Shown here: one piece after another, positions 4,501 to 23,358 of the stretch
Position numbering within the stretch: the stretch's first letter is position 1
Layout of the letters: the number at the start of each line of letters is the position of its first letter
Virus record (IMG/VR): IMGVR_UViG_3300031957_000011
Span: 1 to 25,579 of that record
DNA from: a virus
Length of the DNA stretch: 25,579 nucleotides
Reading direction: 5' to 3' (one strand)
The notes under the pieces: model-generated
Databases searched by the model: none
What the model was told of the DNA's origin: nothing
The model's input: the letters and a program-made list of their open reading frames with translations, nothing else
Translations under genes and position numbers: made by a program

Positions 4501-7435
4501 CCGTGGCGCACCCATGCTGGCATCTCTGTCCGATCCTGCTGGTGTGCGAAAGGTAGAACAAGGGATAAAAGACTCATTACCTAAAGGGTCGATAGCCCGT
4601 GCTGTAAAGAAAGTATCTGACAACTATAGGGCACTCACTGCTGGGCAGACTGAAGTTGGGCTAAAACGCAAGATACTCGGCTTCCTACCTAACAACGCCG
4701 TCGAAGTAGAACTTGAAAGAGCTGGTGTGGCTGGTGTTAGAGATGTGTTCGCTGCTATAGAAAACCAACGCGGAGGTTTAACTACCGCAGAACAATCGGT
4801 CAGGCAGAAGCTAAGTCCTATCCGAGAGTGGGCTGCTAAACAGTCTGGAGAAACGATTAAAGCGTGGAACAACTTAATCTACGACAGCACCCTTGACCAA
4901 GTAGATCCAGAGCTTACGCTCGCACAAGCACAAAAACGCTACGGTGAAGAAACAGTAGAGGGTACAGATCAGCTAAAGATAGACCGCTACAAAGAGTTAC
5001 GAGCCATCTACGATAGCCCTACTGTCGGCGCTGAAGGTAGAAAGGCATATTCCAACTTACGTAAGTTGTACAAAGAACAGTACAACCAACTAACTGATGC
5101 GTTACAGAATCGTATTGACGGTCTGCCGATTGAAGATCAACAGAAGGCTACACTCAAAAACGAGCTATACGCCAAGATGCTAGAGGCGACTAAGTTAGAG
5201 CCATACTTCCCGTTGACTCGTACCGGCACGTACTTCCTGTCTGTGAAGAATCCCAAAGAAGGTGCTGATTCTGCTGTGTTCGCTTTTGAAGATGCTGGAG
5301 AACGTCTAAGGGCAATGGAAGCGTACGAAGCAGAGGGTTATGACGTAGAGACGTTTCGCCCTAACGATAAGACTTCCTACGAAAACGCACCTTCCGGCTC
5401 ATTTGTCTCCACGATATTAGGGATCATGCAGGCGAATAAAGTAGACCCAGAAGTCCAAGAACAAATAACACGTCTGTTCATTGAGTACCTACCAGAGTCT
5501 TCTTTTGCTAAGTCATTGCTTCGACGTAAAGGCACTGAGGGTTATGACGTAGACGCTGTGGAAGCAGCACGTACGAAGGCTTTTGATCTGGCACGTCAGG
5601 TGGAGCGCATCAAGAACTCGCGGCTGATCGACAACGCTGTGCAGGATATGGTCGAAGCTAACCCTGAAATGAAGGACAGCCCAGAGATAGCGGAGGTGGT
5701 GGATCGCGCTAGGTTTGCCGTCAACCCCCCACTGGACAGTTTTGCTAAGAATGCAAACCGTATGGCGTTCCTGTGGACAATCGGCTTCAACGCTTCATCG
5801 GCATTGGTCAACTTGTCACAGATACCGCTGTTCGCATACCCGATGTTGGCAGGTAAGTATGGGTTCGGCGCTACGCGAACCGCTCTAGGCGGTGCTACTA
5901 AGTTGTTTATGGGTGCGCCAAGCAACAAAACCACTGAAAGCCTGTTTGGAGACACTAAGACACCAAACTCCATAAAAGATGCTCTACGTAAGGGAGATTT
6001 GGAGTCAGCAAAAGTTGCTCTTACAGAAAAATCGTTACCTTCATTAGATAACTACTACACGTTTACTCGTGACGAGAAGGGTAATCTTACCTACGCGGTG
6101 CGTGAGGACTTAAACCTCGATAAAAAACGCGCAGACGAACTAAAAGACCTCCTACCGTTGATGGAACTTGCCGCTCGGCGGGGTCAGCTCAACTCGTCGT
6201 TTATTGCCGACACACTCAGCACGAGTCAGGCGGGGCGCAAGATGTCTAAAATGGACGCGGTGACAAACGCCTCGGCTCTTATGTTCCATGAAGCAGAAGT
6301 AATGAACCGCCAAGTCACGATGGTGGCAGCGTATAAGCTAGCTCTAAAGAAGTTTAACGGTGACAAGAAGAAAGCCGCCGAAGAAGCCGTACGTGAGACG
6401 CAGTTAATCAACGGTGGTGCCACACTAGAAACTGGCCCTCGTTACGCACGCAGTAACATTGGACGTATTGCACTAATGTACAAAGCGTACGGCATCCAGA
6501 TGTACTACACGATGTTTAAGTCTGGTAGACAAGCTGTAGAAAATTTCTTTCCGGGCGATGATGCCAAGAGTAGGGAGCTACGTAACGAGGCTTTGAAACA
6601 GCTTGCCGGTGTACACCTGTCCGCCTTGTTCTTTGCTGGAGTGCAGGGTCTACCGCTGTACGGTGCGGTGTCTATGCTTTACGACATGCTTAAAGAAGAC
6701 TATGAAGAAGATGCCGACACTGTGCTTCGGCAGTACCTAGACAGCGATGTGCTGTTTAAGGGCGCTTTGTCTGAGATAACTGGGGTTGATGTATCGCAGC
6801 GCGTTAAACTAACCGACCTACTATTTGAGGCTGACAGGTTTAACAGTGACCCATCGCCAGAAGAAGAGTTCGCTCACTTGTTCGGTGGCCCTGCATGGAG
6901 CATTTACGCACGGGGTAGAGAGGGTATAGATAAATTGCGCAAGGGCGAGATAGAACGAGGCGCAGAAGATCTGATGCCGGGAGCTATACGTAACGCCTAT
7001 AAAGCTGTTATCAGGTACCCAAGGGATGAGGGCATCTTAACTCGACGTGGTGATCCTATTTACGATGACATCACAAACGGCGATTTATTGACGCAGTTGA
7101 TGGGCTTCCCACCCGTTGAGTACACCAGAGAAGCGGACGAAACATCTGCGGCTAAACGCATAGATGTGGCTGCAAGTAGTAAACGACGTGACCTGCTAAG
7201 AAATTACTACGTGGCGCTTAGGTTTGGCGACACTGAAGGTATGTCAGACGTGTTCGACGAAATCATGGAGTTCAACAGATCCAGTGCAGTGCAACGTGAT
7301 CCTAAAAAAGCCATAGGCCCAGACACTATAGAGAGATCTATGGTAGGACACATGGCTCGCTCCGCTGAAATGCACAACGGCACGACGCTATCGCCATACA
7401 TGAAAGCTGCGGTAGACGCACAAGGGTTCTTGTAG
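1571..7435 (+). CDS. Giant virion/ejection-type protein with HExxH metallopeptidase-like site and LPD38-like C-terminus
   Basis: 1954 residues. The N-terminus carries an ANAEAAGDFAAANRMRQA helical repeat; residues ~70-205 and ~235-295 are Gly/Ala-rich and hydrophobic, as expected of a protein crossing the envelope during DNA ejection. Residues ~355-780 are a long E/A/P/R-rich, probably disordered linker. A zinc-peptidase-like site follows: H868-E869-M-A-H872, with E912/E916 in EEFVAEAF as candidate third ligand (gluzincin pattern). Around 1398-1425 a hydrophobic FNASSALVNLSQIP stretch, and a C-terminus with the pattern 'DLMPGAIRNAYKA...EGILTRRGDPI', resemble the LPD38-type domain of large phage polyvalent proteins. 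Start ATG overlaps the upstream stop. Function inferred: internal virion protein delivered with the genome, possibly cleaving cell-envelope or host protein. Family assignment is from memory of motifs, not a search. Confidence 0.85.
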   Translation: MPTLQQARQAIANAEAAGDFAAANRMRQAVQAAQARPPSFLDEAEKIRADVRRRREERLAAQTPAPRETGIFEDITSGFGAGAVGVGEMAALGLAAPLEEESELAAREKIQSIAESFRPEGGDPESITYKLSSALGSIAGLASIPVAAGIAGAPGAVGLGLGALAAGAAGTGEASERARAAEATEEERGSAALRGTAIGLLDILPITRVVKFADMPKLEALLDKIPPEKVETIGERVYSAGITGGAEAAQEAASAFLQNLNEREYNAAAEVFGASDLEEAALGGGAGAILQGLVDLFAPRKAGKTVGDAVEEADVPAGTQIELFDDAERRTPKIDEVIDDIDQEERDRLFEGERAAAISPDQIPLPGLEPERVGPQLQGLPAPEGESVAGETLAVTPEGEALGREEQRERLARLAREQQITEEPVSDEVRTGRERAEIAQREQPDLFPTELAVAEEAAVAPEAAPAPEPRPVTEEDLTTAGFAPNAAVRKRVIGKDLDDPEVRVELTNEANRLKSQKVRRGVTRLLEGVPSEQRDLPTPRKRKPDAARDRTSDVVDIPSVEPTAVGEDTAVATVPDGRTVGDVGRGVRQPAAGARTEPDTLAEPVTPPTVRELRAEIADARRAVVEAEQALATRPTQANQRSLNRAEKQFRNVLAAGINANKQLPDVDVEVIPQETVELQRRAQQVMPATAETTPTVEEVLAKEPTPAPVEPVVEESTADVDARTPQQVKADNQSLLAERRAERDRLVKEEGLSKAEAMRIASEQILYAPPSSSSDVLTAPLPDPVKRAVRKNELRRALLELSDKSGDKFISRIAKKLSDFTGDTRVVTATAAQLGTRGGLQVDGLFSPKDNTIILDGDYADSYVLLHEMAHAATINILRNPSHPTTKKLTKLYENSKEFLSGQYGATNVEEFVAEAFTNPTFQSELARINPKGRPLSVWQEFVRIVSNFLGLGQRGTAQREAELLIEEILAPAAKHRGAPMLASLSDPAGVRKVEQGIKDSLPKGSIARAVKKVSDNYRALTAGQTEVGLKRKILGFLPNNAVEVELERAGVAGVRDVFAAIENQRGGLTTAEQSVRQKLSPIREWAAKQSGETIKAWNNLIYDSTLDQVDPELTLAQAQKRYGEETVEGTDQLKIDRYKELRAIYDSPTVGAEGRKAYSNLRKLYKEQYNQLTDALQNRIDGLPIEDQQKATLKNELYAKMLEATKLEPYFPLTRTGTYFLSVKNPKEGADSAVFAFEDAGERLRAMEAYEAEGYDVETFRPNDKTSYENAPSGSFVSTILGIMQANKVDPEVQEQITRLFIEYLPESSFAKSLLRRKGTEGYDVDAVEAARTKAFDLARQVERIKNSRLIDNAVQDMVEANPEMKDSPEIAEVVDRARFAVNPPLDSFAKNANRMAFLWTIGFNASSALVNLSQIPLFAYPMLAGKYGFGATRTALGGATKLFMGAPSNKTTESLFGDTKTPNSIKDALRKGDLESAKVALTEKSLPSLDNYYTFTRDEKGNLTYAVREDLNLDKKRADELKDLLPLMELAARRGQLNSSFIADTLSTSQAGRKMSKMDAVTNASALMFHEAEVMNRQVTMVAAYKLALKKFNGDKKKAAEEAVRETQLINGGATLETGPRYARSNIGRIALMYKAYGIQMYYTMFKSGRQAVENFFPGDDAKSRELRNEALKQLAGVHLSALFFAGVQGLPLYGAVSMLYDMLKEDYEEDADTVLRQYLDSDVLFKGALSEITGVDVSQRVKLTDLLFEADRFNSDPSPEEEFAHLFGGPAWSIYARGREGIDKLRKGEIERGAEDLMPGAIRNAYKAVIRYPRDEGILTRRGDPIYDDITNGDLLTQLMGFPPVEYTREADETSAAKRIDVAASSKRRDLLRNYYVALRFGDTEGMSDVFDEIMEFNRSSAVQRDPKKAIGPDTIERSMVGHMARSAEMHNGTTLSPYMKAAVDAQGFL
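3162..3374 (+). CDS. Nested (overprinted) 70-residue small protein candidate
   Basis: GTG-started ORF lying in a different frame inside the 1954-residue gene (over its residues ~531-601). An AAGGAG Shine-Dalgarno at 3150-3155 sits 6 bases before the GTG, ideal for initiation. The peptide begins MSNVIYLPHAKENLTQQEIE and continues as amphipathic helices with LTDEQWEMLEEALDSLLLEQ near the end. Composition (balanced D/E/Q/L/I, two Trp, few Arg/Ser) is that of a real soluble protein, unlike the Arg/Ser/Leu-rich shadows elsewhere. The host frame here is a disordered linker that tolerates overprinting, and its composition changes locally (R, P, D, V, T). Function unknown. Could be a spurious ORF, but ribosome site plus composition make me favour a real gene. 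Confidence 0.55.
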   Translation: MSNVIYLPHAKENLTQQEIEQAMSLIYQAWSLQQSVKIPPSLLCLTDEQWEMLEEALDSLLLEQGQSQIH

Positions 7436-7776: not shown

Positions 7777-10642
7777 CAGTCGTGCCGAACACGTTACAGT
7801 TAACTATTAGCACCCGACTCGCCGGTATTGCTGATCCTATGTGGGTGCCTTTACCCAACCGTATAGAGCCACGCTTACCACCTAACTTGTTTATCAGGTC
7901 ATGCACAAACGCGCTGTAGTTTATCTGATGTGCTGCGCACCAAGACTTTAGGTATCTCGGCACCAAGTACGCCTTCTTTGTATCCGTTTCATACCGCGCC
8001 ACTAACTTACCTTTTGGTAGTGCTTCGGGTATGACGATGCTGTCCAGCCCGTTGCCAGAATTACTGCGTAGATCGTCCGTGCTCTTGATTATCAGTATGT
8101 TGTTGTAGTTTTCCGTGATGTAGTCATTAAGAGTCTGCTCTACTGTCGTGCCCATATCATCCACCGCCCGTAGGTTTGCTTTGAGTAACTTAATAGTCCA
8201 CTTGAACAGCGCCTGCATATCGTAGTCAACCAGTTCTAATTTATTGGCGATGTACGCACCAGCTAGGGTGGTAGCCGCTCCGGCAGACCAGAAACGATTT
8301 TCCGCTGTAAGCCCTGCTTTCTCATCGACTAGACGCTGAAATTTGAGTACGAGTTTCTTAACGTCCTCCAGATTCTGCAAAACGTACTGAATGTAGATCG
8401 GCCCTGCGTGTCCGTAGTTGTTCTTGAGAGCCATGTCAAAGCCATCGGTGTCCTTCTTGCTCTCGGTATCGTTGAAAACACGCTCTGCCCTCCACTCCAT
8501 TATCCTCTGCGCCTCTGCTTTCGGCGCTTGCTTATCCGCCGCAATACGTTCGACAACGCTGGCATTGCCGGTGGTAACACACAAGAAGTGCCATGACTCA
8601 CCACGGATGCGTTCTTGGTTAGAGCCGCTGGACATGCGACCACGCTGTTCCCCAGAAGATATTTGGTAAACCAAATTACTTAGCTGCTTTCCTTCTGTGT
8701 TGGTCAGCTCATCTATGTAAAACGGTAGATTGCGTAACAGCTCTGCACGGTTAAATTTGAACGCATCAGTAGCAGCTTCAGGTGTCATCATACCTTTCTC
8801 AGCTCCCCATACTGAGGACGCTACTCGTACGGCTGCAGACTTACCACACCCACTCAAGTTGCTATGTATGTGTAACGCGCAAGCGCTCTGAGGCAAAAAA
8901 CTCATCAAGGGGGAACCAAATGCTGTACACACGACATACTGGTGCATCACAAGTTCAGGCCGCGTGTTGTAAAAATTAGCCATTTCTTTCCACGCCTCCA
9001 ACGTACCCTTCGGCTGGAAGTACGAGATATAGGCAGCGGTGGACATAGACGGGGGGTTATGCCGTACGTGATCTGCGTGTATCTCTCTATCACCTACGAT
9101 AAAGGCACTCATGTCGTCGTTAACCCAACCGAACTGTCGGTGCGCTATATCTGCTGTAGCAGTAGCTTGTAATTCGTTTATCCAAGTAATCATATATAAC
9201 ATCAAGTCGTTGATTTGTGGGACAGCCACGCCCTGCATGGACATCTGCTTGCGTAGCTCCTCTTTTGAAGTAACCGCCGTAAGCGGCAGGGTGAACTCTC
9301 GTACTTCGTCTTGGGGCAGGTGTATCCGGCAGACTACAGATTCACCGGCTTCTACATCCATCACCCGCTGCGTAACGTAAATATCATTGTGGTAGATAAC
9401 GTGTTCGTCAACCTCACCGTCTTGGCTTATGTTCCTGACGTACACACCACCGTTCGTCCCCCGAAAATACGGACGTGGGTAAACTGGTATAACGTGTTCT
9501 GTAGAAAGTTCTTGACCGACAATTTCCGCAACAAGCGTACCTTCTATCGGATCGCTTGACCCATCTGACTCAACTACATACGTGCCGTCTTCGTTCACTT
9601 CGGCTTCGGGTATCTTACGCCCTAGAATAATCGGCGATTTGATCTTGCCCCAGTGTGGGCACTCCGTGCAGATACCGCCCTCGTTTTCGTCGAATGTCGT
9701 GCATCGGTACGGCCCCTTGATAAGATCTAGCTTCTTGAGCGTTAGTTCAGGCGTGTACTCAGGGTGCTGGTTTGAGATCTTGTGCGCGGCTTTCTCACCG
9801 TCTACGCAAAACTTGGCGATAGACAACCCTGCTCGCCACATAGGCTCACTCGTCTCGGCCTGACCTTTTATTATGCGGTGTAGTTGCTCGCATCCATTAC
9901 CGTTCTGCGCTTTGAGCAGTATGCTTCTGAATTCATACTTAATGTTGCTCATCAGTGCATCGCGTAGGCTTGCTGGCCCCTCGGCAGGCGCATACTTCTT
10001 GGGAACTGGTATCGTATCCATCCCCAATTTACTGGCAAAAAAGTCAAAGTTAACCGTATCAGGGGTGTTGCCTATGACTTCTACTGGCGCAGGCGTATCG
10101 GGTTTGTGGTTGTGTGTACCCACTACGCGGAGCACCCGCGCTATATCAGCAGGCACTGCGGGGTCTATCTCAAGCCCGAACTCTTTGCATTTGGCTTTGA
10201 ACTGGTCAGCTACTACTTTCCACTGTTCTACCGCTACGGACTCTGACAGCACCCAGTAAACGTGTATGCCACGCCCAGAGTTAACGATAAGAGGTTTTGG
10301 TAATTCTAACGCTGCACGAAACTCTTGCAGCCTGAGTAGTGCTTCCCTCTGTGTAGTAAACCCCTCGTTCTTAGCAGCTTTGTCTTCGCCAATGTCTAGG
10401 TCTAAAAAGAACGACTTAATCTGCTTGGCGTCTTCACTCTTGCGGGTACCTTCTTCTTTGAAGTTACTCAACGCAAAGTACATATCCCACCCTTCGCTGT
10501 CGTGGTACTCGGCGGCTTCTGCTAGTTCATCTGTCGAATGAAAGTACGTCTGCCGAACTCCGTTCGACGCTAGGTCATATTGAAGGGCGACGTATACACC
10601 CTCTGTGGGTAATACCCACCGTAAAAATTCTCTTGTATTCAT
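7742..10642 (-). CDS. PrimPol (AEP) primase fused to DUF927 helicase-like domain
   Basis: About 966 residues from the ATG at 10642; an upstream ATG at 10735 adds 31 basic residues and gives 997. Neither start has a good Shine-Dalgarno. I prefer 10642 because conserved sequence begins there (MNTREFLRWVLP) and its leader TCTCGGCATTGG resembles the leader of the gene at 12414-12824 (TCTCGGCAATGG). Numbering from 10735: archaeo-eukaryotic primase motifs are D112-L-D114, S153-G-R-G-I-H158, and D191/D197 with RVLRVVGTHNHK. A Cys cluster (CTTFDENEGGICTECPHWG) lies mid-protein. The C-terminal half has Walker A SGCGKS (K632) and FYIDEL, matching DUF927/SF3-like ATPases. Predicted to prime and unwind at the phage fork, working with the adjacent SSB and PolA. 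Good confidence in fold; helicase polarity not inferable. Confidence 0.88.
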   Translation of the reverse strand: MNTREFLRWVLPTEGVYVALQYDLASNGVRQTYFHSTDELAEAAEYHDSEGWDMYFALSNFKEEGTRKSEDAKQIKSFFLDLDIGEDKAAKNEGFTTQREALLRLQEFRAALELPKPLIVNSGRGIHVYWVLSESVAVEQWKVVADQFKAKCKEFGLEIDPAVPADIARVLRVVGTHNHKPDTPAPVEVIGNTPDTVNFDFFASKLGMDTIPVPKKYAPAEGPASLRDALMSNIKYEFRSILLKAQNGNGCEQLHRIIKGQAETSEPMWRAGLSIAKFCVDGEKAAHKISNQHPEYTPELTLKKLDLIKGPYRCTTFDENEGGICTECPHWGKIKSPIILGRKIPEAEVNEDGTYVVESDGSSDPIEGTLVAEIVGQELSTEHVIPVYPRPYFRGTNGGVYVRNISQDGEVDEHVIYHNDIYVTQRVMDVEAGESVVCRIHLPQDEVREFTLPLTAVTSKEELRKQMSMQGVAVPQINDLMLYMITWINELQATATADIAHRQFGWVNDDMSAFIVGDREIHADHVRHNPPSMSTAAYISYFQPKGTLEAWKEMANFYNTRPELVMHQYVVCTAFGSPLMSFLPQSACALHIHSNLSGCGKSAAVRVASSVWGAEKGMMTPEAATDAFKFNRAELLRNLPFYIDELTNTEGKQLSNLVYQISSGEQRGRMSSGSNQERIRGESWHFLCVTTGNASVVERIAADKQAPKAEAQRIMEWRAERVFNDTESKKDTDGFDMALKNNYGHAGPIYIQYVLQNLEDVKKLVLKFQRLVDEKAGLTAENRFWSAGAATTLAGAYIANKLELVDYDMQALFKWTIKLLKANLRAVDDMGTTVEQTLNDYITENYNNILIIKSTDDLRSNSGNGLDSIVIPEALPKGKLVARYETDTKKAYLVPRYLKSWCAAHQINYSAFVHDLINKLGGKRGSIRLGKGTHIGSAIPASRVLIVNCNVFGTTDEDDESNTQDV

Positions 10643-12874: not shown

Positions 12875-14410
12875 TTAATCAAGTATTTCTTTGTAAAGAT
12901 CAATAATTTTTGTATGTGTGTCTATTTTGTTATCTAGTAGTGCGTACACGCGCTTTTCTATGTGAGACCCTTGTAGCTGCACTATCGTACATTTGTGATC
13001 CTGCCCCGCCCTGTGAATCCGTGCGTTAGCTTGGGCGTATGTCTCCACCGAACTGGTTGGCCCCCACCATACGATTGTGTTCGCGGCGGTCAACGTAACG
13101 CCATGTGCCGCAGCCTGTGGCTGAATGACCAGCACTCGCGGGGTATCTGTCTCTTGGAACTCCTTGAATATGCGCGTACGGTCAGTAGCTTTTACTGCCC
13201 CGCTGATGATCTCGGTGGGTATCTTGTCCTTGCGTAGCTTGTCGGTAAGTAGCTGTATTGTGTGCTTGAACGGCACGAAGATCAGAACCTTCTTGCTAGA
13301 CTCGTCGATCACTTCACGCAGCACCTTGTATCGGTGCTTGATGTCGAACTCCACTACCTCTTTGTCATCGGTGTACACCGCACCAGAACTGATTTGCAGC
13401 AGCTTGTTCATGTTGACCGCTGCCGTAGCTGCCGTGACTGTCTCTTCCGCAGCTTCCATGACCATGCGGTCTTTTAATTCTTTGTAGTATTTTTCTTGCT
13501 GGCGAGTGAGCGGTACATCGCGGGTTGTGTATATGATGTCAGGCAGATCCAGACACTCTTCCTTGGTGAACCGTATCGCTGGTTGCAGCGCATTGAACAC
13601 GGTGTCTGTGGCGTCGGGCTTGGGCACCCACTTGAAGTTAGTCACTTTATACATGACCTGATCGCGGAACGAACCAAAGAAGCGTGGCACAGCCTTCGGG
13701 TTAACGAGTTTAGCCAGACCGTACGCATCTAGTGGGCTTTGTGCAGCGGGGGTGCCTGTCATCATCCATAGCCATGTGTCAGGACTGAGCAGCCTGTTTA
13801 GCGTCTTCCACCTGTCAGTCTGAGCATTCTTGTAGTGAGTCGCCTCGTCCACGATCACTAAGTCAAAACCTCCATTGGCTATGGCGTCCGCTACGATTGC
13901 TACACCGTCATAGTTTATTATCACGAACTCTGCATCACTTTCGATTACAGCAGTCCTCTTACTTACTGAACCGTGCGCTATATCTACCTTGCGGTGCATG
14001 GCAAAGCTGAATAAGTCCTCTCGCCACGCCGAGTCCATGATAGATAGAGGACAGATAACAAGAGCGCGGTTGATACGGCCTTGTTTCATCAAGAAGTCTG
14101 CCGCCCAAATAGCACTGGCGGTCTTTCCTGTACCTTGTTCGTTGAAACAGAACGCACGTTTATTGAGTGTGAGGAACCCCGCCGTAGATTTCTGGTGCTC
14201 GAAAGGTTTGTACTTACCTGTCCATTGGTACTGCCCTTCGATGGGTGACGGAGCGTTGATGTTTAAGTTCTTGAGTACGTGAGTCTCGTCTACACCCCAA
14301 TTAACCACCACTCGGTTATCTGATAACTCCTTACTCTTTGGGATAATACTTGTGACTTTCTGAGGATCGCGCAGACGCAGTAACAATGCTTTATTGTCTA
14401 TGACTTTCAT
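12875..14410 (-). CDS. SNF2-like SF2 helicase/ATPase
   Basis: 511 residues from the ATG at 14410, preferred over the frame's extension to 14488 because GGAAGGG lies just upstream and the longer form would run through a strong terminator. Motifs (numbered from 14410): Q-rich start FEHQ, Walker A EQGTGKT at ~91-97, DEAT box at ~188-191, TGTP at ~218-221, motif V AHGVTLTAANTIVWW, motif VI QANARIHRAGQ at ~460-470. This is the Rad54/SNF2 arrangement common in phage replication blocks. Predicted to translocate on double-stranded DNA or remodel fork/recombination intermediates; the PrimPol-DUF927 protein probably drives the fork itself. Its mRNA leader lies directly behind the terminator at 14427-14458, so expression may be conditional. 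Confidence 0.9.
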   Translation of the reverse strand: MKVIDNKALLLRLRDPQKVTSIIPKSKELSDNRVVVNWGVDETHVLKNLNINAPSPIEGQYQWTGKYKPFEHQKSTAGFLTLNKRAFCFNEQGTGKTASAIWAADFLMKQGRINRALVICPLSIMDSAWREDLFSFAMHRKVDIAHGSVSKRTAVIESDAEFVIINYDGVAIVADAIANGGFDLVIVDEATHYKNAQTDRWKTLNRLLSPDTWLWMMTGTPAAQSPLDAYGLAKLVNPKAVPRFFGSFRDQVMYKVTNFKWVPKPDATDTVFNALQPAIRFTKEECLDLPDIIYTTRDVPLTRQQEKYYKELKDRMVMEAAEETVTAATAAVNMNKLLQISSGAVYTDDKEVVEFDIKHRYKVLREVIDESSKKVLIFVPFKHTIQLLTDKLRKDKIPTEIISGAVKATDRTRIFKEFQETDTPRVLVIQPQAAAHGVTLTAANTIVWWGPTSSVETYAQANARIHRAGQDHKCTIVQLQGSHIEKRVYALLDNKIDTHTKIIDLYKEILD

Positions 14411-14426
14411 ATATACCCTTCCATAC

Positions 14427-14458
14427 AAAAAAGCGCGAAGTGGGTGTCCACTACACGC
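14427..14458 (-). terminator. Strong intrinsic terminator directly upstream of the helicase gene
   Basis: On the minus strand the arms at 14458-14448 and 14443-14433 pair over 11 positions with one U.U mismatch and one G.U, around the 4-base loop ACAC, and are followed without gap by six U (14432-14427). Only 16 bases separate the U-tract from the helicase ATG, so any transcript reaching the helicase must pass this site. It could end the upstream operon or a small RNA, or act as an attenuator. Confidence 0.78.
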
Positions 14459-14621
14459 AGTAAAAATGCGGTGGTCGATGAGATTCACGCCAATAACCTA
14501 GGAAAACAAACAACAAAACCTAGTCGTGGGAACGCACTTCATCTCACCCTTTCTTTAAGCAGTATGATTTACACTGCTAGGAGTGTCGGACGCCACCGCT
14601 CGCCCGACGTTATGTGCCCAC
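14427..14621 (-). ncRNA. Candidate structured small RNA or attenuating leader
   Basis: About 195 nt, from a putative start near 14621 to the terminator. Foldable elements in the minus-strand RNA: closing stem GTGGG (14621-14617) with CCCAC (14530-14526); an 8-bp stem with one G.U, arms 14608-14601 and 14592-14585, whose 8-base loop AGCGGTGG is complementary over 7 bases to CCACCGC at 14474-14468 (possible pseudoknot); a 6-bp AGCAGT/ACTGCT stem at 14578-14558; a U-rich stretch at ~14520-14500 flanked by CTAGG/CCTAG. No ORF with a ribosome site was seen in it. Some stems compete (ACACT/AGTGT). I match it to no known RNA family; structure is by eye only. Confidence 0.4.
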
Positions 14622-14627
14622 ACCATA

Positions 14628-14636
14628 GTTATATCA
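14628..14636 (-). promoter_or_regulatory. Extended -10 promoter candidate
   Basis: Minus strand reads TGATATAAC: an extended -10 (TGn) joined to TATAAC, one base off consensus. The -35 region is weak (TTAATT at 17-base spacing, within a T-rich tract). Expected start is near 14621, exactly where the candidate RNA's closing stem begins. Confidence 0.4.
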
Positions 14637-14651
14637 TTTCAGACAAAAAAA

Positions 14652-14741
14652 TTAAGCTAGTAGGTACAAAATAAACGCTACGAAGTATATAGACGCTGCA
14701 ATACCCGCGCCCATGAGAATACCCCTAAGCTCTTCTCTCAC
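14652..14741 (-). CDS. 29-residue single-span membrane peptide
   Basis: GTG start at 14741 overlaps the stop of the HNH-like gene (GTGA). The peptide has a charged head (VREELRGIL) and one hydrophobic span, MGAGIAASIYFVAFILYLLA, ending at a TAA followed by seven T. Reinitiation by overlap is the likely mode; an internal ATG at 14714 with TTAGGGG upstream gives a 20-residue form. Such tiny single-span peptides are frequent in phage early regions. Function unknown; holin or anti-host activity is possible but not shown. Confidence 0.5.
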   Translation of the reverse strand: MREELRGILMGAGIAASIYFVAFILYLLA

Positions 14742-15013
14742 CTACGTCTTGGGCTTTTGCCATTACGACTGCGGTTAGCACTCCTGCTCTCCACACGCAC
14801 ACCGTCTTTATTGCTGCCGCCCTTACTCAACATCTTGTTGTGGCTGACATCTTTACCTTCCCGCTTGTCAGCTTTGCCGTTTTTGTTGGCATCGCGTCCA
14901 GCTTTGTCCATAGCACGTCGCGCACGTTGTCTTTCCATCCGTGCTTCATGTGCGGGACTGCCAACTGGCGGGTTCTTTTGTTTTTTGCGGTCTTTCGGAT
15001 TCTTGTACGGCAT
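14738..15013 (-). CDS. Small basic HNH-like protein
   Basis: 91 residues, rich in Lys/Arg (start MPYKNPKDRKKQKNPP). Residues ~54-84 read GKDVSHNKMLSKGGSN, a short strand, then SRSANRSRNGK, matching the beta-beta-alpha core of HNH nucleases in which His (here in DVSH), Asn and the terminal Asn of the helix bind metal. The N-terminal zinc ribbon usual in longer HNH enzymes is absent, and the first metal/general-base pair is SH rather than DH or HH, so activity is doubtful. Start overlaps the upstream nuclease stop (TAATG), with GGGAAG before it. Could be a nuclease or a basic nucleic-acid binder. Confidence 0.65.
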   Translation of the reverse strand: MPYKNPKDRKKQKNPPVGSPAHEARMERQRARRAMDKAGRDANKNGKADKREGKDVSHNKMLSKGGSNKDGVRVESRSANRSRNGKSPRRR

Positions 15014-22080: not shown

Positions 22081-23358
22081 TTACATATCACTTGATTGAA
22101 TGTGTACGACCTTGCCGTTGTCGGGAGTCGCATGTTTGTTGTTCAGAACACACCACAATGTCGGGCAGTCCCATGTACCCCAGTCACCGAACAAGTAGCC
22201 ATCGGTGAGGATGACCGTCGCTTGCGGCTTGATCTGGTGCGCTTGCATGTACTCGACAACACACTCGACATCGGTGCCGCCACCGCCCTTGACCTTGGTG
22301 GAGTTGACCAGCGCACCTAGCTCATGTACCCCGTACGATTCGTCACCCACAACCTCGTCACCCCAGTACAGCACGCGAACCTTGTCGGGCTTGACCGTAG
22401 TACAGATAGACTGCACCTCGGATAGAAACAGAGCGACAGCGTGATCGCTGATAGACCCTGACGTATCAATAGCAAGTACAAGCTCGTCGATTCTCTCGCT
22501 GATGCCGCTAGGCAAGTAGACATCGGCACCGATGTATCGTCGGTTGGGACGTTTCCATGTGGAGTAGTCGTTGCCGGTGCATGTGGTCTGGATGAACTCA
22601 CGCAGTGCCTCACGCCAATCGACCTGCGGTTGCATAAGCTCATCGAACCGGCGGTTGCCTTTGCCACCCAGCTTGCCAGCTATCAAGCTGCCCTGACGTA
22701 TTGCCACGTCGATCTCTTTCTCAAGCTCTTTGACCTCATCGTCCGACAGCTTGTTGGCTTCTTCCCAATCATGCTCATCAAAGCCTTGGGCGGAAGACGT
22801 ACCTTGTGGGTTACTACCACCTGACCCGTTACTGGGTTGACCATTAGGGCCGTCCTCGCGGCCGCCCTGTTGCTGTCTTCGCTGTTCTTCTCTCAGCTTA
22901 TGAAAGATAGCAGCCGAGTCCATCCATGACCCATCGGGATTGCGGAACTTATCGTCATACAGACCTTGGTACTTGCCGGTGGGCATCTTGGCGAACCCGT
23001 CCTCACGGTTGTCATCCACAATAGTGCCGTTGATGTAGTAGTCACATGCTTGGTTGGCTAGGCTCGGATCAATGTCGTACATCCACCTGTAAGTTGTTAG
23101 GTGACGTAGTAGCTTGTGGCCCTCGTCTTCGTGCAGCATGACAAAGCGAAGCTCGGCATCAGTCAGTTCATCGACCATCGCACGTCCGAACTCCACATCG
23201 CGTCCGTTGGTACATGCAGTTGGTATGTCATCGCTGACAGTCTTGGTGCCGATCATAAGAACGCCAGCCAGTGCGATGTACCGCTCATGTGCCGTGATGT
23301 CCACGACTGCCTTGGCAATCCGCTGCTCGGCGGTCAGTTGTTGGTTTAGTGCTAGCAT
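22081..23358 (-). CDS. VWA-domain protein with putative metallopeptidase-like N-terminus
   Basis: 425 residues. The N-terminal part carries LHEDEGHKLLRHL (H76-E77...H81) and LANQACDYYINGTIVDD, the layout of the putative-metallopeptidase domain that precedes VWA in DUF2201-type proteins, but the His spacing is HExxxH rather than HExxH. Residues ~155-200 are a Gln/Gly/Asn-rich linker. The C-terminal VWA domain has an intact MIDAS: D298-T-S300-G-S302, T362 and D386. AAGGAG precedes the ATG at 23358, ten bases after the ATPase stop. Paired with a MoxR ATPase it is expected to work as a metal-dependent adaptor in a chaperone-like complex. Related to the CobT-like genes seen in phages; a cobalamin role is not implied. 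Confidence 0.85.
   Translation of the reverse strand: MLALNQQLTAEQRIAKAVVDITAHERYIALAGVLMIGTKTVSDDIPTACTNGRDVEFGRAMVDELTDAELRFVMLHEDEGHKLLRHLTTYRWMYDIDPSLANQACDYYINGTIVDDNREDGFAKMPTGKYQGLYDDKFRNPDGSWMDSAAIFHKLREEQRRQQQGGREDGPNGQPSNGSGGSNPQGTSSAQGFDEHDWEEANKLSDDEVKELEKEIDVAIRQGSLIAGKLGGKGNRRFDELMQPQVDWREALREFIQTTCTGNDYSTWKRPNRRYIGADVYLPSGISERIDELVLAIDTSGSISDHAVALFLSEVQSICTTVKPDKVRVLYWGDEVVGDESYGVHELGALVNSTKVKGGGGTDVECVVEYMQAHQIKPQATVILTDGYLFGDWGTWDCPTLWCVLNNKHATPDNGKVVHIQSSDM

Follow-up and report, generated by a model that had tools for sequence, protein, structure and literature searches.

A candidate family of compact double-pseudoknot RNAs encoded among the replication genes of uncultured phages

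Introduction

Does the intergenic region upstream of a helicase gene in a marine phage encode a structured RNA and, if it does, does this RNA control the gene that follows or act on its own? The question arose from an initial annotation of the DNA studied here, a stretch of 25,579 nucleotides hereafter called the window, which proposed a hidden pseudoknotted RNA in a minus-strand gap at positions 14411-14737 and offered two roles for it, either a stand-alone RNA or a leader that sets read-through into the helicase, SSB, and primase genes according to whether its pseudoknot forms. Here we report a comparative analysis of this gap in related and distant phage loci. The gap almost certainly encodes a real structured RNA, predicted on the minus strand at about 14466-14626, and this candidate RNA belongs to a phage family that is widespread, measures about 115-165 nt, and has a predicted double-pseudoknot fold.

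Results

The gap is present as originally described, and its flanking genes encode a 91-aa protein (14738-15013) and an SNF2-type helicase (12875-14410). The surrounding long replication operon includes the genes for DNA polymerase A, a PDDEXK nuclease, a Gp2.5-like SSB, a primase/helicase, a MoxR-like ATPase, and a DUF2201 protein. The protein encoded at 22081-23358 is named an HNH endonuclease in PHROGs, whereas Pfam assigns it a DUF2201 metallopeptidase and a VWA-like domain; a MoxR-like AAA ATPase adjoins it. Open reading frames listed in the gap are a 76-aa plus-strand ORF (14444-14674) and an extended helicase start, GTG at 14488. A coding reading of the gap was dropped because the indels in the hairpins P3 and P4 of the relatives (Table 1) are not divisible by three.

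The folding energy of the minus strand is unremarkable (z = -0.82 and -1.42, with 18 of 200 shuffles folding as well in the latter case; z = -1.52 for the plus strand), and promoter-like sites are not above chance in a consensus scan against shuffled sequence (2 found, 2.0 expected). Thus, the claim could not be settled from the window alone: single-sequence energy does not show a structured RNA, whereas the comparison with relatives clearly does.

A query with the helicase yielded 80 related IMG/VR loci, and a pattern for the RNA core matched 23 stretches, with 17 distinct sequences over all loci. The 8-bp stem GUCGGGCG/CGUCCGAC with loop AGCGGTGG that had been noted initially is indeed there, as is the complementarity of the loop over 7 nt to a downstream CCACCGC, a perfect match at 14474-14468, and the relatives keep this pairing by paired substitutions. 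In close relatives, the loop/tail pair GCGGTGG/CCACCGC is replaced by GTGATGG/CCATCAC or GTGGTGG/CCACCAC, and another paired change turns GGTGAGAT/ATCTCATC into GGTGAAAT/ATTTCACC. When P1, P2, the loop-tail helix, and P5 were scored on A2, a plain MAFFT alignment of close relatives with 16 rows, 99.2% of cells were paired and both-side changes numbered 29 versus 9.9 in shuffles (0/500), while slid structures all dropped to 34-55% paired. The number of pairs that show any both-side change (6 versus 4.5) does not reach significance on its own in these close relatives. Compensatory substitutions, the lack of which had been named beforehand as the first refutation of the proposal, were found in the homologues, both in the pseudoknot and in three further helices, and strongly support the hidden RNA with a pseudoknot.

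In the predicted fold, P1 encloses two hairpins, P2 and P3, and also the 5' strand of P5, with the 3' strand of P5 and a 7-nt tail lying 3' of P1. Since P1 and P5 cross and the P2 loop pairs with the tail, the structure contains two pseudoknots. One column pair of P1 is G-C, A-U, or U-A across relatives, and P1 is wholly rewritten in the most distant members. In diverse members, six of the eight P5 pairs are changed on both sides; compensatory changes between L2 and the tail occur at two columns in close relatives and at five of seven in diverse members, the sequences of which were mostly preselected for pairing. The helices P1 and P5 had been missed by the initial annotation, which instead proposed an outer stem beginning at the transcript start. 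That stem forms in the single-sequence minimum-energy fold, but it consumes the tail strand, and the relatives favour the loop-tail pairing together with P1, a different helix that competes with it.

Table 1. Predicted elements of the RNA and adjacent signals in the window
Element	Positions	Strand	Remarks
Extended -10-like TGATATAAC	14628..14636	-	sequence resemblance only
Whole structured RNA, P1 to pseudoknot tail	14466..14626	-	models R2 and R3 match 14465-14626 and 14467-14622, by construction, the window sequence being among those used for building them
P1 5' strand GUGGG	14617..14621	-	pairs with CCCAC near 14526-14530
P2 5' strand	14601..14608	-	8-bp hairpin stem; C-G/U-A/U-G changes
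L2 hairpin loop AGCGGUGG, pseudoknot 5' strand	14593..14600	-	7 nt pair with the tail
P2 3' strand	14585..14592	-	8-bp stem with 14601-14608
P3 hairpin, variable in length and sequence	14558..14578	-	minimum-energy fold; relatives have different hairpins here
Purine-rich conserved junction UAAAGAAAG	14549..14557	-	RAAA-rich, just 5' of P5 in nearly all members
P5 5' strand GGUGAGAU	14541..14548	-	8-bp helix with 14477-14484
GAAGUG after P5	14535..14540	-	conserved in one large subfamily
P1 3' strand region CCCACG	14525..14530	-	pairing kept in relatives
P4 variable hairpin	14498..14523	-	CTAGG..CCTAG becomes CATCG..CGATG in relatives
P5 3' strand AUCUCAUC	14477..14484	-	exactly 2 nt 5' of the tail in nearly all members
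Tail CCACCGC, pseudoknot 3' strand	14468..14474	-	pairs with L2
Separate 3' hairpin GCGUG-U-AGUGG..CCACU-U-CGCGC with T6	14427..14458	-	terminator-like; -15.3 kcal/mol with T6

Covariance model R2, which was built without the pseudoknot and without P1, turned up additional members at different genomic locations (L109, L108, L172, L110, and, as a partial match, L201). All four full-length finds have a perfect loop-tail complement of differing sequence (GUAUUAG/CUAAUAC, GUGGCAG/CUGCCAC twice, and GCGUGGG/CCCACGC), and these complements are an unselected test of the predicted pseudoknot. A degenerate hairpin pattern added many contigs. It gave 213 matches over all loci, with 87 distinct sequences listed that carry an exact 7-nt complement downstream, versus 48 of 2,130 (2.3%) with scrambled loops; at least three of the 87 are chance matches. 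In nearly all such members, an 8-bp P5 starts after the RAAA-rich junction and ends exactly 2 nt 5' of the tail. For 36 non-redundant members, in a count for which P5a was chosen for fit and loop-tail pairing was a selection criterion, P5 is 99.0% paired with 103 both-side cells versus 24.2 when shuffled (maximum 43 in 500), and P2 has 36 such cells versus 11.7 (maximum 19). Over P2 and P5 together, 83 cells are G-U and 2 are A-C, so the structure belongs to the RNA strand as read here.

Because of this selection for fit and pairing, the pairs were recounted on A4, a MAFFT alignment of 18 diverse members, in most rows of which the loop-tail pairing was preselected, whereas P5 and the variable P2 pairs were not. 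In this alignment, both-side changes affect 14 of the 23 pairs (86 cells versus 23.1 shuffled; 0/500), and the covariation score is 0.625 versus 0.208 shuffled (0/500), slid structures reaching at most 0.114. The GAAG sequence is invariant in A4, all members of which belong to the GAAG subfamily. Since R2 had missed distant members, model R3 was built from A4 with P2 and P5 only, and it returned full-length matches in about 40 diverse IMG/VR contigs, with E-values that are rough owing to short calibration. Members that were not preselected for pairing (L290, L347, L276, and L355) also possess a complementary tail, with G-U pairs. The family described by R2 and R3 has P2 with a loop starting with GAG, the RAAA-rich junction, an 8-bp P5 located 2 nt before a loop-complementary tail, and P1 crossing P5. 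All members of the family come from metagenomic contigs.

The long records contain a single R3 copy in 22 of 23 cases. Within records of 30-60 kb, hits of the two models form one cluster per record, on the early strand and at varied operon positions, namely before the helicase (G001), before a VRR-NUC-like gene (G005), near the operon 3' end (G004), and at the operon 3' end adjoining convergent genes (G007). The big RNA is always intergenic and mostly co-directional with the preceding gene, and its start usually lies within some tens of nucleotides past the stop codon that ends a co-directional, often SSB-like gene (C-termini DDIPF or AWS). The genes 3' of it vary (methyltransferase, HNH, polymerase, and recombinase, as named from reading the sequences and not from a family search), no flanking gene is constant, and a convergent gene comes next in L301, L319, and L323. 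The conserved tie to the 5' side of one gene class that characterizes riboswitches and attenuator leaders was not found, the downstream genes being many and some of them convergent. In L311, sixteen tRNA genes lie in a row (1-2703), about 2.4 kb upstream of a distant family member.

The extended -10 promoter that had been assigned to the RNA is present as the sequence TGATATAAC at 14636-14628, but the consensus scan did not list this site, and the resemblance is visible only in the closest relatives of the window (L001, L002, and L095); elsewhere among the relatives, the RNA is directly 3' of another RNA motif or a stop codon. Where a terminator had been placed, 16 nt before the helicase ATG (14410), there is a terminator-like hairpin (stem-loop 14433-14458) with T6 (14427-14432), and the pair is present in close relatives too, but the T-run is lost in more distant ones, the full U-run being absent in L042, L047, and L062. 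This 3' hairpin also occurs without the big RNA. Its sequence GTGGACACCCAC (window 14433-14458; also L062, L042, and L047) is kept upstream of the helicase even without the U-run, and thus it may have a role beyond termination, such as that of a processing site.

In the window, the gap has no modules other than the big RNA and the 3' hairpin; in the relatives of the window, it is a modular array. A second motif of about 60-100 nt, in which P1 encloses a variable hairpin and a hairpin with the loop UCCCGUC pairing with GGCGGGA just 3' of P1, was found in at least 120 stretches (92 distinct forms), with tandems of up to four in one gap. It lies 5' of the helicase or small accessory genes (for example, L027 711-922, L021 382-683, L008 2512-2784, and L158 2770-2918), and in L158 it is, as seen for the big RNA, before a convergent gene. 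Over 35 sequences, the second motif is 97.5% paired with 56 both-side cells versus 11.5, and it has no Rfam match. Two matches to this small motif came from genome_contigs, of which that in L233 is inside a gene and due to chance, and that in L232 is on a phage-like contig binned in a MAG. In L006, L010, L020-L025, and L036, the gap before the helicase is a hotspot of small accessory genes, several of which have their own copy of the small pseudoknot motif just 5' of the ribosome-binding site. A third conserved element of about 75 nt, cloverleaf-like, was seen in 33 stretches (GGGGUAYGRCC..CUCAACCGGAUGCUCGG..GCCCUGCCCC), including L032 4887-4960, L011 at about 4690-4760, L225, and L217; in L225, a tRNA-like gene comes immediately after the element. 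Together with the companion motif, this element suggests that structured RNAs are clustered in some marine phages in the way that tRNAs are in others.

At the gathering threshold, Rfam 15 gave no match in the window, in 15 close relatives, or, tRNAs aside, in 15 loci with distant members. Permissive matches to lncRNA or CRISPR-repeat models (GHRLOS, bxd_1, and CRISPR-DR9) were rejected as far below the cut-off, and other permissive Rfam searches returned nothing. No description of the RNA family was found in the open-licence literature, a weaker point than its absence from Rfam. The candidate phage RNA family looks new, being without a match in the current public RNA library. Among cultured phages, blastn found nothing convincing for the RNA, and those with the nearest helicases showed no such RNA; a match of 24 nt in Erwinia phage Pastis stops within the hairpin and is attributed to chance. 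Acinetobacter phage Effie (L375) has repeated AT-rich intergenic blocks at 9950 and 24528 with AAATCAGAGCGGT hairpin arms, which are unrelated to the RNA. Scans of 385 and 398 cellular genomes, with 7-8 candidates scored per genome, returned nothing, which is not evidence of absence.

Discussion

The best reading of the RNA, which we hold with confidence and doubt in equal measure, is that of a trans-acting early phage noncoding RNA. It rests on the single copy per record, the free placement, the lack of a constant flanking gene, and the sites next to convergent genes. The RNA would be made within the early replication-operon transcript of the phage and, in the subclade of the window, perhaps also from its own promoter. 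Once the flanking mRNA is processed, a compact nuclease-resistant RNA would be left, which would act in trans in early infection by binding a host or phage factor, such as a nuclease or a defence protein, and would not be a switch of whichever gene follows. In close relatives, it would be one module of an array with one to several copies of the second pseudoknot RNA. Of the two roles initially proposed, the stand-alone one is the better fit, as a stand-alone or trans-acting RNA. The usual place just after a co-directional, often SSB-like gene speaks against the trans-acting reading, as it is also expected of a cis-acting 3'-UTR element. In addition, neither a target nor a partner nor a processing signal could be identified, and the searches of cultured phages did not turn up the RNA.

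More tentatively, the double-pseudoknot core may define an undescribed widespread class of early, trans-acting RNAs (e.g., a ribozyme, or a decoy or inhibitor that targets a host nuclease or defence system), present as a single copy in the genomes of many unrelated uncultured phages, with a second new tandem-pseudoknot RNA accompanying it in one marine group.

A serious though less probable alternative is that the RNA is a cis-acting mRNA element, a pseudoknotted block 3' of a gene that halts an exonuclease or flags a site for processing and stabilizes the upstream or downstream part of the early operon transcript. Such an element would account for the strictly intergenic, mostly co-directional location between operon genes and at operon 3' ends, for the tandem copies of the small motif, and for the topology of both motifs, which resembles that of viral exonuclease-resistant RNAs. 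However, there is a single site per genome despite many operon junctions, the neighbouring genes vary, and the core sequence is conserved beyond pairing, in the junction and in the GAG at the loop start, which suggests specific recognition.

A putative self-cleaving or catalytic RNA, in which a compact double pseudoknot with a conserved purine-rich core cleaves the early transcript, appears unlikely. The fold and the conserved RAAA-rich junction followed by P5 persist across very divergent members, as a catalytic core might, but no conserved cleavage-site candidate and no Rfam ribozyme match were identified.

The proposed leader, in which termination or read-through into the helicase, SSB, and primase genes would depend on the pseudoknot forming, is quite improbable. 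In the window, the terminator-like hairpin with T6 3' of the RNA and the helicase start 16 nt downstream speak for it, but in the relatives the RNA precedes other genes or a convergent gene, the U-run is outside the conserved RNA, the hairpin also occurs without the big RNA, and the promoter is not conserved. With varied or convergent genes beside the RNA at its many other sites, a helicase riboswitch or attenuator does not fit. Finally, a single-stranded DNA structure or replication-origin signal, which the single site per genome among replication genes and often beside SSB genes might indicate, is very improbable, since the excess of G-U over A-C cells means that pairing is kept on one strand only; the cumulative GC skew also has its extremes away from the array, and a replication origin was rejected.

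The trans-acting reading invites comparison with known RNAs. In viral exonuclease-resistant RNAs, a hairpin enclosed by P1 has a loop that pairs with a tail on the 3' side of P1, and both phage motifs share this loop-to-tail topology, the comparison being of pairing topology alone. The phage RNA differs from them in its DNA phage context and its extra P5 pseudoknot, and no sequence similarity or Rfam match was seen.

Type III toxin-antitoxin RNAs and phage ToxI mimics are tandem RNA repeats folding into pseudoknots (PMC3475682, PMC8860590). The small motif resembles them in its pseudoknotted tandems, and a terminator-like hairpin precedes a gene in the relatives of the window; unlike in those RNAs, the fold here is larger, with a junction and several hairpins, the repeats differ from each other, and there is no Rfam match. 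The big RNA is single-copy, and no toxin gene was recognised alongside it, its neighbours in the window including the SNF2 helicase, PDDEXK nuclease, and DNA polymerase A.

The STAXI motif (RF01728), of unknown function, consists of pseudoknots that are usually in tandem and near SSB and DNA-handling genes (PMC2864571). Its model had no match above the cut-off in ten of these phage records, and in contrast to STAXI the window RNA is single-copy, the tandem element here being the companion small motif.

ROOL and GOLLD, which with STAXI are the closest known kinds among the structured RNAs carried by phages or mobile elements, are phage or prophage noncoding RNAs with pseudoknots and unknown function (PMC12286853). 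Like them, the window RNA family is phage-encoded, elaborate, pseudoknotted, and not bound to one neighbouring gene, and the L311 member shares its locus with an array of 16 tRNA genes. Unlike them, the family measures about 115-165 nt and not several hundred, has no gathering-level match to either Rfam model, and is usually inside a replication operon rather than a tRNA island. The role of structured phage RNAs such as ROOL, GOLLD, and STAXI is an open question, for which the present family is compact and single-copy, of a size that suits pull-down, structure determination by crystallography or cryo-EM, and chemical probing. The secondary structure is firm owing to strong covariation, and because the RNA is sited among replication genes in diverse phages, a role in early infection can be tested directly.
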